Shown here piece by piece: positions 8,163 through 37,091 of a stretch of DNA of 64,000 bases. The position numbers were made by a program, and so were the translations under genes. The stretch spans positions 372,001-436,000 of the forward strand of contig NZ_JANIDW010000001.1 of the NCBI RefSeq assembly GCF_026385475.1. The letters are read 5' to 3'. Each line of letters starts with the position of its first letter. Positions within the stretch are counted from its first letter, which is position 1. A model generated the notes under the pieces. That model searched no databases and had not been told where the DNA came from. It saw only the letters and a program-made list of their open reading frames with translations. The stretch comes from Bombella saccharophila. Its GTDB lineage: Bacteria; Pseudomonadota; Alphaproteobacteria; Acetobacterales; Acetobacteraceae.

Positions 8163-8273
8163 AGGGGTAGTGTAGTTTATCTTGACTTTAACAGGAAGGA
8201 CCCCACATCTTGCATAGGTTGGGGATGATGTATCCCTTTAGACTTATAGTTTAATTCCGGAACAGTAGGTATC

Positions 8274-9041
8274 ATGGCTTTCCATTCCGATTTTGGCTCC
8301 TCACGGGGATACTCGGCCGCTGCGGCGTTTGATGCTGGTTTGCGCGCTTATATGGTGCGCGTTTATAACTGGATGGCATTCGCTCTGTTTTTAACAGCCG
8401 TTACGGCTTATGCCGTGGTTCATACCTCTCTGCGGACGTTGTTTTTCCACGTGGTGCAGCGGGGAGACGAGTTTGTATTTGCCCCAACGGGCTTAGGTAT
8501 GGTGGGGGTTTTCGCGCCGCTCGCTTTTGTTCTTGTGCTGTCATTTGGGGTTAATCGTCTCTCTCGCTCAACTGCGCAGATGCTTTTTGTGCTCTATAGT
8601 GTTGCTATGGGCATTAGCATGGCCTCTATATTGATGGCCTATACTGGGGCTTCTGTTGTGCGGACCTTCTTCATTACGGCATCGCTTTATGGTGTGATGT
8701 CCCTATGGGGCTATGTCACGAAGCGCTCTCTAACGGGGATGGGTTCTTTCCTAATGATGGGCCTGATTGGCCTTATTATTGCCTCTCTTGTGGCGCTGTT
8801 TATCCCCTCACAAGGGATGACAACGGTGATCTCCTTCATCGGGGTGCTGATTTTTGTAGGTTTTACGGCTTACGACACCCAGCGTATTAAGCTCTCTTAT
8901 CAGAGTTACGCCTCGGCTTGGCCAGCTGAAGCATTGGAGAAGATGAGCGTGTATGATGCGCTCTCTATGTACCTAAACTTTGTTAATCTTTTTCAGTTTC
9001 TTCTTCAATTTACTGGGACGAGATCAGGTGGTCGTGACTGA
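8274..9041 (+). CDS. Bax inhibitor-1 (BI-1/YccA) family membrane protein
   Basis: This is a 255-residue integral membrane protein with about seven hydrophobic segments, of the UPF0005/BI-1 family (YccA, YbhL, TMBIM). Family features are FTAYDTQRIK before the last segments and SMYLNFVNLFQFLL at the C-terminus. Bacterial members are described as pH-sensitive calcium leak channels or as partners and inhibitors of the FtsH protease; the sequence does not decide which applies here. The ATG is preceded by AGTAGG. The gene appears to be transcribed alone, since a strong terminator follows at 9075-9099. The AYDTQ aspartate is present. Confidence 0.88.
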   Translation: MAFHSDFGSSRGYSAAAAFDAGLRAYMVRVYNWMAFALFLTAVTAYAVVHTSLRTLFFHVVQRGDEFVFAPTGLGMVGVFAPLAFVLVLSFGVNRLSRSTAQMLFVLYSVAMGISMASILMAYTGASVVRTFFITASLYGVMSLWGYVTKRSLTGMGSFLMMGLIGLIIASLVALFIPSQGMTTVISFIGVLIFVGFTAYDTQRIKLSYQSYASAWPAEALEKMSVYDALSMYLNFVNLFQFLLQFTGTRSGGRD

Positions 9042-34156: not shown

Positions 34157-35482
34157 TTAGGGGCGGGCTAACCAGCTAGGGACAACGTCTTGTGCGAGAA
34201 GCTCATCAAGCGTTTGGCGTTTACGGATGACGGCCTCTTGGCCATTACTAATCATGATTTGTGCTGCAAAAGGACGAGAATTATAGGTCGAGCTCATCAC
34301 TGTGCCATAAGCTCCTGCATCTAAAAGGGCAATAAGGTCGCCTTTTTTAAGAGGTGGTAAGGTACGTTGACGGGCGAAAATATCGCTGCTTTCACAAATC
34401 GGGCCAACAACATCAACGCGTTCTTCAAGCGTGTCTGTAGGTGGGGCGTGTAAGGGTAAGATACCATGCCATGAATCATACATAGCGGGGCGAACAAGGT
34501 CATTCATCCCGGCATCAATGATGACAAAACGGCGCGCTGCCTCTTTAACATCAATAACGCGCGCAAGCAGCACCCCCGCCGGGGCTGCGAGCCAACGGCC
34601 CGGTTCGATATGAAGGTGAACGTCCAATCCCCCCAATGTCTCGGCAATGACCTTAGCCCAGAGCGCAGGCGGGGGAGCGTCCTCACCACGATAGGCGATG
34701 CCAAGCCCGCCGCCGCAATCAATATCGGTGACAGATAAACCATCTGCGCGGAGGGTCTTAACGAGCTCCGCAATGCGTTCATACCCTTTGCGGAAGGGGG
34801 CTTCCGCCAGCATTTGGCTACCGAGATGGACCGCTAGACCGACAAGCTCCACCCCCTTCATCTCCTGTTGTGTGCGGCGATATAAGGCAGGGATGAGGTT
34901 ATAAGCGATGCCAAACTTATCTTCAGCGCGTCCGGTTGTGATTTTACTATGGGTTTGGGCATCAATATCGGGATTAACGCGGAAGGCAACGCGCACACGT
35001 TGTTGAAGGGTCTCGGCAAGGTGGTTGATGCGGGTTAGTTCTTCAATACTTTCGATATTGATTTGGCCTATGTTTTGCTGGATGGCATAGGTCAATTCGT
35101 CATCAGTTTTACCGATTCCCGAAAAGACGATATGGCGCGCTTTCATCCCCGCTGTAAGGGCGCGCTTTAGCTCCCCCCCGCTGACAACATCCGCGCCAAA
35201 GCCACATTGTGCGAGGACGCTTAAGCAGGCTTGATGATCCTGCGCTTTTACGGCGAAATGATAGCCCATAGATAGGCCGCGCTCGTTAAAAGCGGCCTGC
35301 ACGTTATGCGCACGTTGGCGCAATGTGTCGGCACTGATAACCCAGCTTGGCGTACCATAACGCTCAGCAAGGGGGGCTAGGGCTGTTCCATCCATCATTA
35401 AACCCTGCTTGTTGTCATAATGCAGGTTGGGATGAGTCGCGAGGAGGCGATGGAAGGTCGGGTCTGAAGCTGTGGACGTCAT
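34157..35482 (-). CDS. lysA: Diaminopimelate decarboxylase
   Basis: This 441-residue fold-type III PLP enzyme removes CO2 from meso-diaminopimelate, the last step of lysine synthesis. Motifs: YHFAVKAQ with the PLP lysine, GFGADVVSGGEL, HLGSQ, DCGGGLGIAY, EPGRWLAAPAG, and the subunit-shared VGPICESSD active-site Cys segment. Length is slightly longer than usual (about 420). It is upstream of the TIGR02302 gene in an operon and divergent from the glycosyltransferase-like gene, with 183 bp between starts. No lysine riboswitch is recognisable upstream. Confidence 0.96.
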   Translation of the reverse strand: MTSTASDPTFHRLLATHPNLHYDNKQGLMMDGTALAPLAERYGTPSWVISADTLRQRAHNVQAAFNERGLSMGYHFAVKAQDHQACLSVLAQCGFGADVVSGGELKRALTAGMKARHIVFSGIGKTDDELTYAIQQNIGQINIESIEELTRINHLAETLQQRVRVAFRVNPDIDAQTHSKITTGRAEDKFGIAYNLIPALYRRTQQEMKGVELVGLAVHLGSQMLAEAPFRKGYERIAELVKTLRADGLSVTDIDCGGGLGIAYRGEDAPPPALWAKVIAETLGGLDVHLHIEPGRWLAAPAGVLLARVIDVKEAARRFVIIDAGMNDLVRPAMYDSWHGILPLHAPPTDTLEERVDVVGPICESSDIFARQRTLPPLKKGDLIALLDAGAYGTVMSSTYNSRPFAAQIMISNGQEAVIRKRQTLDELLAQDVVPSWLARP

Positions 35483-35665: not shown

Positions 35666-36901
35666 ATGAATAAAAGAAAGATATTAGTTACATTTGCGGG
35701 TCGTAAGGACCGTATGGGACTTTTAAAGAAGCATGTTTCGTCCTTATTAGATGCGGGGTTGTTGGATGAATGGCATGTTTGGGATTTTACAAGGACGGAA
35801 CAGGACCGTGCTTATATTTCATCACATTATGGTCCTGTACGTTTTTTAAGGCCGGAAGCGGGGTATCATTCTGTTGGGATGATAGAGCGTGGTGCAGAGC
35901 GAGATTATTCTTTTATGGCGGCATCAGATGTGCATGTCGCTATTAAAACAGCCGGGCATGATCAATTTTTGGAATATGTGATTGGGGGGTGGCAGAATCG
36001 TGGCTCGATGATTCGGCAGTTAGATGAGGCGGCTTTCTCAACTTATGAGCGGGGGGAGGGGCAATGTCTGCATCAAGCTAGTACGCCGTCTGTTTTATGT
36101 GGGCAGCTTAAAGATAAGCTACGGGTTTATCTGACGGATGAGGGTAAGCTTGGTGTCACTGTTTCTGGCTATAAATTCCCAGAACTGCCCTTGCGGGGTG
36201 ATATTGGGAAGGTAGAGATTTTTTTACGTGGTGGGTTCGGAAGCTCAATAGAACGTCTCAATCTATCAGAAAAAGTGAGCCGCTTTATTGGGGATAAAGG
36301 GTGCCAGAAGCCATATTGGCAGGCTTATCAATATTATGTGGAGCGTTATGAGGCGTATAAAGAGGCCATTTTCTTAAAATGTGATGATGATATTATTTAT
36401 CTGCAAGAAGAGCGGGTGGCTGACTTTATACGCTGTATTGAAGAGCGAACCGATAAATTCCTCATCTCAGCCAATGTCGTGAATAATGGTGTCTGTGCTT
36501 ATCTTCAGCAACAAGCCGGGCATTTGCCGCAGGCTCTTGGGGCTTTTGAAAATCCTGAACAGGGCTTTGGAGGGACCTTATGGCAAGATGGGCAAAAAGC
36601 TTATAACTTGCACCGTCATTTTATAGCGCAAGGTAAGCCTTCTTTTCCGTTAGGGGAGGCTTTGATGGATGTGGAGGCGCGTCTTTCCATCAATTTCATC
36701 GGTTGGCGGGGAGAGATGTTGCGTTACATGCAAATAACGCCGCAAGATGACGATGAGCATATGCTAAGCGTTGTTCTGCCACGGTTTCTTGGTAAAAAGG
36801 TGGCGATTTTCTCGGACTTCATGGTCAGCCATCTCAGCTTCTTCCCGCAAGAAGCCGCTGTGAAAGCTGATGAAATCATCAAGCTGTATGATACTGCATA
36901 A
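35666..36901 (+). CDS. Glycosyltransferase-like protein with inserted PF12248-like domain
   Basis: This 411-residue cytoplasmic protein starts with KILVTFAGRKDRMGLL and carries KCDDDIIYL (238-246), a DxD-type motif of GT-A glycosyltransferases, where aspartates bind the metal and nucleotide sugar. Between these parts, residues about 78-197 resemble the farnesoic acid O-methyltransferase-like (PF12248) beta domain of animal proteins: DVHVAIKTAG, EYVIGGWQNRGSMIR (103-117) and VYLTDEGKLGVTVSG. That domain is thought to bind ligands, not to catalyse methylation. The gene is AT-richer than its neighbours, with an AAGGAAGGG site 12 bases before the ATG. It ends six bases from a tRNA-Arg gene. Acceptor and donor are unknown; transfer from elsewhere is possible. 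Confidence 0.65.
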   Translation: MNKRKILVTFAGRKDRMGLLKKHVSSLLDAGLLDEWHVWDFTRTEQDRAYISSHYGPVRFLRPEAGYHSVGMIERGAERDYSFMAASDVHVAIKTAGHDQFLEYVIGGWQNRGSMIRQLDEAAFSTYERGEGQCLHQASTPSVLCGQLKDKLRVYLTDEGKLGVTVSGYKFPELPLRGDIGKVEIFLRGGFGSSIERLNLSEKVSRFIGDKGCQKPYWQAYQYYVERYEAYKEAIFLKCDDDIIYLQEERVADFIRCIEERTDKFLISANVVNNGVCAYLQQQAGHLPQALGAFENPEQGFGGTLWQDGQKAYNLHRHFIAQGKPSFPLGEALMDVEARLSINFIGWRGEMLRYMQITPQDDDEHMLSVVLPRFLGKKVAIFSDFMVSHLSFFPQEAAVKADEIIKLYDTA

Positions 36902-36907
36902 GGAGAT

Positions 36908-36984
36908 TGGTGCACCCGGGAGGACTCGAACCTCCAACCCCCAGATTCGTAGTCTGGTGCTCTATCCAATTGAGCTACGGGTGC
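36908..36984 (-). tRNA. tRNA-Arg (anticodon ACG), copy 2 in transcript order
   Basis: This 77-base tRNA is on the minus strand and has the 3' CCA encoded. It has a perfect 7-bp acceptor stem (GCACCCG/CGGGTGC), the D stem GCTC/GAGC, anticodon stem CCAGA/TCTGG with loop CTACGAA giving anticodon ACG, and T stem GGAGG/CCTCC with loop TTCGAGT. A34 would be edited to inosine to read CGU, CGC and CGA. It is identical to the copy at 37015-37091, 30 bp away. Confidence 0.97.
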
Positions 36985-37014: not shown

Positions 37015-37091
37015 TGGTGCACCCGGGAGGACTCGAACCTCCAACCCCCAGATTCGTAGTCTGGTGCTCTATCCAATTGAGCTACGGGTGC
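37015..37091 (-). tRNA. tRNA-Arg (anticodon ACG), copy 1 in transcript order
   Basis: It is identical base for base to the tRNA at 36908-36984, including the encoded CCA. The pair is transcribed toward the glycosyltransferase-like gene and probably from one promoter in the 37092-37185 interval. Tandem identical copies indicate a recent duplication or gene conversion. Confidence 0.97.

Follow-up and report, generated by a model that had tools for sequence, protein, structure and literature searches.

What kind of enzyme is encoded by a single gene lodged beside two tRNA genes in Bombella saccharophila, a bee-associated acetic acid bacterium, and what might be the task of the PF12248 (Methyltransf_FA) domain within it, given that this domain is known chiefly from proteins of arthropods and other animals? 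The gene lies on the forward strand of the window, the stretch of 64,000 nucleotides that was analysed here, starts with ATG at position 35666, ends at 36901 and encodes a protein of 411 amino acids. The original prediction described it as AT-richer than its neighbours and as abutting tRNA genes, and both descriptions are accurate: the G–C content of the gene is 0.456 (GC3, 0.427) versus 0.534–0.552 (GC3, 0.50–0.58) in four neighbouring genes, and a tRNA-Arg gene starts 6 bp beyond its stop codon. The NCBIfam search with the 411-aa protein gave no credible match, and the PDB sequence and profile searches returned noise only. Together with 26 homologues, the protein forms an alignment of 27 sequences (A1), and the tree of this family has long branches. 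The AlphaFold2 model of the whole protein, built with 27 alignment rows, has a pLDDT of 90.6 and a pTM of 0.90. The parts of the gene are as follows:

35666–36901, + strand: gene of a GT-A glycosyltransferase with an inserted PF12248/galectin-fold domain (ORF, PF12248, phrog_4447, AlphaFold, structural matches)
35666–35851, + strand: N-terminal segment of the GT-A core, residues 1–62, with invariant TFAGR and DEWHVWDF (insert-less alignment; model)
35852–36277, + strand: inserted galectin-fold (PF12248) domain, residues 63–204 (PF12248; fold of the segment alone; PDB galectins; absent in phage and G035 homologues)
35972–36016, + strand: best-conserved motif of the insert, residues 103–117, EYVIGGWQNRGSMIR (alignment conservation)
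36278–36898, + strand: C-terminal segment of the GT-A core, residues 205–411 (alignment; model; structural matches)

A galectin-fold domain inserted into a GT-A core

In the Pfam search with the whole protein, PF12248 matched residues 82–168 with an E-value of 1.2e-5 and 25.5 bits, the gathering score of the family being 24.2, and the insert segment searched alone reached 28.5 bits (E-value, 1.5e-6). All of the 27 sequences of A1 match PF12248 at a reporting limit of E up to 1 (best E-value, 3.1e-15); thus, the modest score of the single sequence reflects divergence rather than chance. The embedded PF12248-like domain that had been proposed is therefore real, its match exceeding the curated cut-off. 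The proposed bounds (residues 78–197) proved to be too short, as model and alignment place the insert at about residues 63–204, where the AlphaFold model has the separate beta domain that had been expected, a beta-sandwich.

Folded alone, residues 63–204 gave a model with a pLDDT of 89.4. The best 50 matches of this model in the PDB are all galectins (Z, 10.5–11.2), and in these alignments 116–121 of the 142 residues are superposed with an rmsd of 2.6–3.3 Å and about 6–14% identity. The sugar-binding motifs of galectins are HxNPR and WxxExR. Neither of them was found when the sequence of the insert was inspected, nor was HxNxR, and the sole Trp of the insert stands in WQNRGS. Thus, the insert has a galectin fold, but it is not a galectin.

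A methyltransferase reading of the PF12248 part was rejected, since the predicted fold is a beta-sandwich like that of galectins and includes no methyltransferase fold of the Rossmann type. The Pfam family name, and nothing else, would make this part a farnesoic acid O-methyltransferase, a function that is hardly credible for it. The literature on PF12248, judged by title and abstract, contained nothing on bacteria or glycosyltransferases, and carriers of the family were found in 3 out of 349 Pseudomonadota genomes, the genome of the window included. In another bacterial context, PF12248 occurs in a protein of 233 aa (L054:1462–2163, − strand) from another alphaproteobacterial family; this protein lacks a glycosyltransferase part, and its N-terminus is signal-like.

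Homologues lacking the insert are the mycobacteriophage glycosyltransferases L031 and L032, and a protein (L003) from the Acetobacteraceae genome G035. The catalytic motifs AGR/GGR, E(W/Y)H(V/L)W, DDD/DDL, VNN, SIN, DE and H(L/F)(S/T)(F/Y) are common to them and the 411-aa protein. As such homologues exist, the galectin-fold domain is a true insertion, and it is placed within the GT-A core. A gene for a fused GT2 and TylF-type methyltransferase (L031:2726–3988) adjoins one of the phage homologues. The best viral structural match was a 565-aa protein of pithovirus LCPAC201 annotated as ‘macrocin-O-methyltransferase’ (BFVD A0A481Z534; E-value, 1.7e-11; 448 columns), which may share the architecture of a GT-A core with a beta domain.

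Given the galectin fold of the model, recognition of the acceptor by the insert, as suggested in the original prediction, is plausible, and a lectin activity would be in keeping with this fold. An unlikely alternative is that the insert binds no sugar and serves as a module for structure or oligomerisation. The absence of the galectin sugar-binding motifs and the mean conservation of the insert, lower than that of the core (0.56 versus 0.71), agree with such a module, as does the fungal galactofuranosyltransferase GfsA, whose extra beta-domains take part in dimerisation (PMC11538602). However, residues H90, E103, G107–W109, N111, R117 and T140–P141 are at least 90% conserved and look like a functional site; at least 90% conservation is also seen for V105.

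Candidate catalytic residues and structural relatives

The glycosyltransferase nature of the protein had initially been deduced from its N-terminus and DDD motif. Structural matches to GT-A enzymes and a match to the phrog_4447 profile (‘glycosyltransferase’; residues 217–354; E-value, 1.2e-23) supported this assignment, and the DDD motif proved to be invariant. The Pfam search, in which the insert was matched, revealed no family over the catalytic core; thus, the core appears to represent a little-described glycosyltransferase lineage. Three candidate sites were identified in it:

36383–36391, + strand: DDD, residues 240–242, putative metal and nucleotide-sugar site (invariant; aligns with the acidic motif in homologues lacking the insert)
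36752–36757, + strand: D363–E364, putative general base (invariant; kept in phage and G035 homologues; GlfT2-like spacing)
36830–36832, + strand: H389, putative third metal ligand (invariant; kept in insert-less homologues; analogy to H396 of GlfT2)

Residues D240–D242, D363–E364 and H389 are invariant in the 27 sequences of A1. VIA-align comparison of the predicted model showed that the core resembles Chlorella virus hyaluronan synthase (HAS; Z, 12.7; 225 residues; 4.2 Å), human B4GALNT1 (Z, 12.3; 180 residues; 3.5 Å) and Nocardia GlfT2 (Z, 11.1; 193 residues; 3.2 Å). GlfT2 was not matched when the A1 profile was searched against PDB sequences. In GlfT2, manganese is held by D256/D258 and H396, with D372 acting as the base; equivalent residues are present in the fungal GfsA (PMC11538602). 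The distances D240–D363 and D363–H389 are 123 and 26 residues, respectively, versus 116 and 24 in GlfT2. By this analogy, in which residue equivalence is based on order and spacing and not on superposed coordinates, D240–D242 and H389 would serve as metal ligands and D363–E364 as the base, as in GlfT2.

Gene neighbourhoods and the likely sugar donor

Outside the Acetobacteraceae, 25 loci (L008–L030 and plasmids L033 and L034) were surveyed. The survey revealed that the glycosyltransferase with a galectin-fold domain is a conserved family in Rhizobiales, and that in rhizobia and other Hyphomicrobiales it is part of a conserved cassette composed of a giant Ser/Thr-rich ALTTAQ-repeat protein, an OGT-like GT41, the glycosyltransferase with the insert, and glf (UDP-galactopyranose mutase). 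ALTTAQ-repeat (PF20080) and TPR-GT41 genes adjoin the glycosyltransferase gene in 19 of the 25 loci, and glf, too, is found within the fetched flanks of 17 of these 19; in L024, a glf copy lies across the ALTTAQ gene, on its other side. In the cassette, the glycosyltransferase gene is followed on the same strand, after some tens of bases, by glf; in L085, the gene after glf encodes an epimerase and, judged by its sequence, is probably galE. The partnerless loci L012, L014 and L017 of Rhizobiaceae are extra copies, and both of the two genomes with a partnerless locus that were checked have a full cassette with its own glycosyltransferase elsewhere (L085, L086). ALTTAQ-repeat (PF20080) genes are located at:

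L019:94–5157, − strand
L034:2317–5748
L025:1533–5762

These genes always have GT41, and usually glf, next to them. The ALTTAQ proteins (n = 3) are 1143–1687 aa in length, contain about 27–28% Ser and Thr, and have no Trp. Such a composition would suit O-glycosylation, and GT41 may be the enzyme that modifies these proteins. The literature search found no paper naming ALTTAQ. Both GT41 and ALTTAQ are absent from all of the 11 Bombella genomes searched.

Genome-wide tests of 11 further carrier genomes detected glf in 10, the exception being a genome that is 72% complete, versus a base rate of 9% (13 out of 142) in Alphaproteobacteria. Since the carriers are not independent, and Nocardia uses glf for its cell wall, this co-occurrence is support rather than proof. 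The genome of the window has glf as well, in a cluster (L067:7847–18197; contig C1, about 852–862 kb) with GT8, GT2/GT92-like and sugar-binding-region glycosyltransferase genes. The same cluster encodes several similar proteins of about 217 aa, unassigned to a family, which read like ERVWFFDCFGHIISY. A UDP-galactofuranose (UDP-Galf) pool is therefore available in Bombella. As glf was also found in seven of the eight Bombella species without the glycosyltransferase gene, this pool has another user there.

The fold does not choose the donor, because HAS and B4GALNT1 match it as well as GlfT2 does. Consequently, the same GT-A enzyme with its galectin-fold acceptor domain might instead use a pyranosyl donor (UDP-Gal, UDP-GlcNAc or UDP-GalNAc), with the cassette glf serving another transferase. 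This is rather doubtful, though worth serious consideration: the top structural matches include enzymes using UDP-GlcNAc (HAS) and UDP-GalNAc (B4GALNT1), and glf is kept by Bombella species devoid of the gene, but GT41 and the glycosyltransferase with the insert are the only cassette transferases beside the closely following glf, and glf is present in nearly all carriers, far above its base rate. Taken together, the similarity of the core to GlfT2, the order of the active-site residues, which is like that of GlfT2 and GfsA, the adjoining glf in 17 loci, and the genome-wide co-occurrence speak with fair confidence for galactofuranose as the sugar transferred. The literature search joining galactofuranose, glycoproteins and Alphaproteobacteria found nothing.

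Within the Acetobacteraceae, the architecture is rare: a survey of 200 genomes gave matches in five, one of which (G035) is without the insert. The gene is present in three of the 11 Bombella genomes, two of them of the species of the window and one of a second species, and the proteins of the two species share 87% identity. The insertion site in the window is bordered by the following genes:

34157–35482, − strand: putative lysA (diaminopimelate decarboxylase), one border (ORF; named by its sequence; border conserved in Bombella)
36908–36984, − strand: tRNA-Arg(ACG), the other border (ARAGORN)
37015–37091, − strand: second tRNA-Arg(ACG), identical to the first (ARAGORN)

In seven of the eight gene-less Bombella genomes, lysA and the tRNA-Arg pair are about 80–110 bp apart, one such empty site having been aligned directly; G006 is gene-less too. 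This closeness indicates the insertion or loss of a single gene. Insertion is favoured because of the AT-rich composition and scattered relatives of the gene, and the Bombella copy was probably gained horizontally. A search for direct repeats flanking the gene turned up, besides the two tRNA genes, a single weak match of 25 nt.

In a Commensalibacter-like relative of low G–C content (G353), an intact copy is flanked on either side by the duplicated terminal part of an M16-type peptidase gene (L064:6073–6372 and 8163–8462), the two repeats being 99% identical over 300 nt, as if this copy had arrived by recombination that duplicated its border. The second copy of G353 (L065; G353:C1:129286–130510) is broken, its N-terminal half being interrupted by four stop codons.

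It is improbable that the Bombella gene is a recent passenger of little or no function. Its presence is patchy, it has no cassette partners, promoter and terminator scans at the gene gave nothing beyond shuffles, and one of the copies in a relative is degraded, all of which would fit a passenger. Against this, three Bombella genomes carry the gene at the same site with an unbroken frame, the proteins of the two species are 87% identical, and the invariant core residues are all kept.

Our preferred explanation, to which we attach moderate probability, is that the protein is an inverting, metal-dependent galactofuranosyltransferase, the galectin-fold insert of which recognises a glycan acceptor, and that the solitary Bombella copy acts on another surface glycan. 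The core (about residues 1–62 and 205–411) would bind the nucleotide sugar via a divalent metal on DDD (240–242) and H389, with D363/E364 as the general base of an inverting transfer. The donor would most likely be UDP-Galf, while the insert (about residues 63–204) would most likely hold the acceptor, a glycan already present on a protein or a surface polymer. In rhizobia, this acceptor would be the sugar placed by the neighbouring GT41 on the ALTTAQ-repeat protein; in Bombella, which has neither, the glycosyltransferase would decorate another surface glycan on its own. The wider proposal is a tentative one, namely that these genes constitute an undescribed bacterial protein O-glycosylation system, in which GT41 adds a first sugar to Ser/Thr of the ALTTAQ protein, the second enzyme reads this sugar by its galectin-fold domain and adds Galf supplied by the adjacent glf, and Bombella, Saccharibacter and the Commensalibacter-like relative use the second enzyme alone on another acceptor.

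Comparison with known systems

The galectin fold, the evidence for insertion, the conserved family with its cassette, and the galactofuranose hypothesis are additions to the original prediction. The system of the rhizobial relatives is more interesting than the Bombella copy, and the cassette offers a testable proposal for the modification of ALTTAQ-repeat proteins. A lectin-fold module within the catalytic fold of a glycosyltransferase is an unusual route to acceptor choice, and the literature search for a galectin-like bacterial glycosyltransferase found none. The galectin fold also provides a structural identity for the misnamed ‘farnesoic acid O-methyltransferase’ domain, which bears on its function in animals. 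With Pfam PF12248, the protein shares a sequence match over the curated cut-off, and all members of the glycosyltransferase family match PF12248 too, whereas here the domain resides inside a glycosyltransferase. The insert is likewise similar to galectins in its predicted fold, but lacks HxNPR and WxxExR and is located inside an enzyme.

With GlfT2 of Nocardia and Mycobacterium, the protein shares the GT-A core, as well as DDD, a putative acidic base and a His residue that appear in an identical order at similar spacing. However, GlfT2 is about 624 residues long, compared to 411 here, was not hit by the A1 profile among PDB sequences, and the insert described here is in another place and of another kind. 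The mycobacteriophage glycosyltransferases of PHROG 4447 are homologous in the core (E-value, 1.2e-23) and have the catalytic motifs in common, but are devoid of the insert. The GT31 enzyme GfsA is alike by description, combining a GT-A core with a beta-sandwich and a similar catalytic set (PMC11538602), although its beta domain is formed by the N and C termini, whereas that of the Bombella enzyme is inserted. HMW1C glycosylation systems are described as modifying an adhesin (PMC3012730), and the likeness to such HMW1C/OGT-type GT41 systems lies in the rhizobial GT41 encoded beside a giant surface-like repeat protein. In comparison with them, the rhizobial cassette adds the galectin-fold glycosyltransferase and glf and would have the ALTTAQ-repeat protein as its substrate, while Bombella carries the galectin-fold enzyme without GT41.
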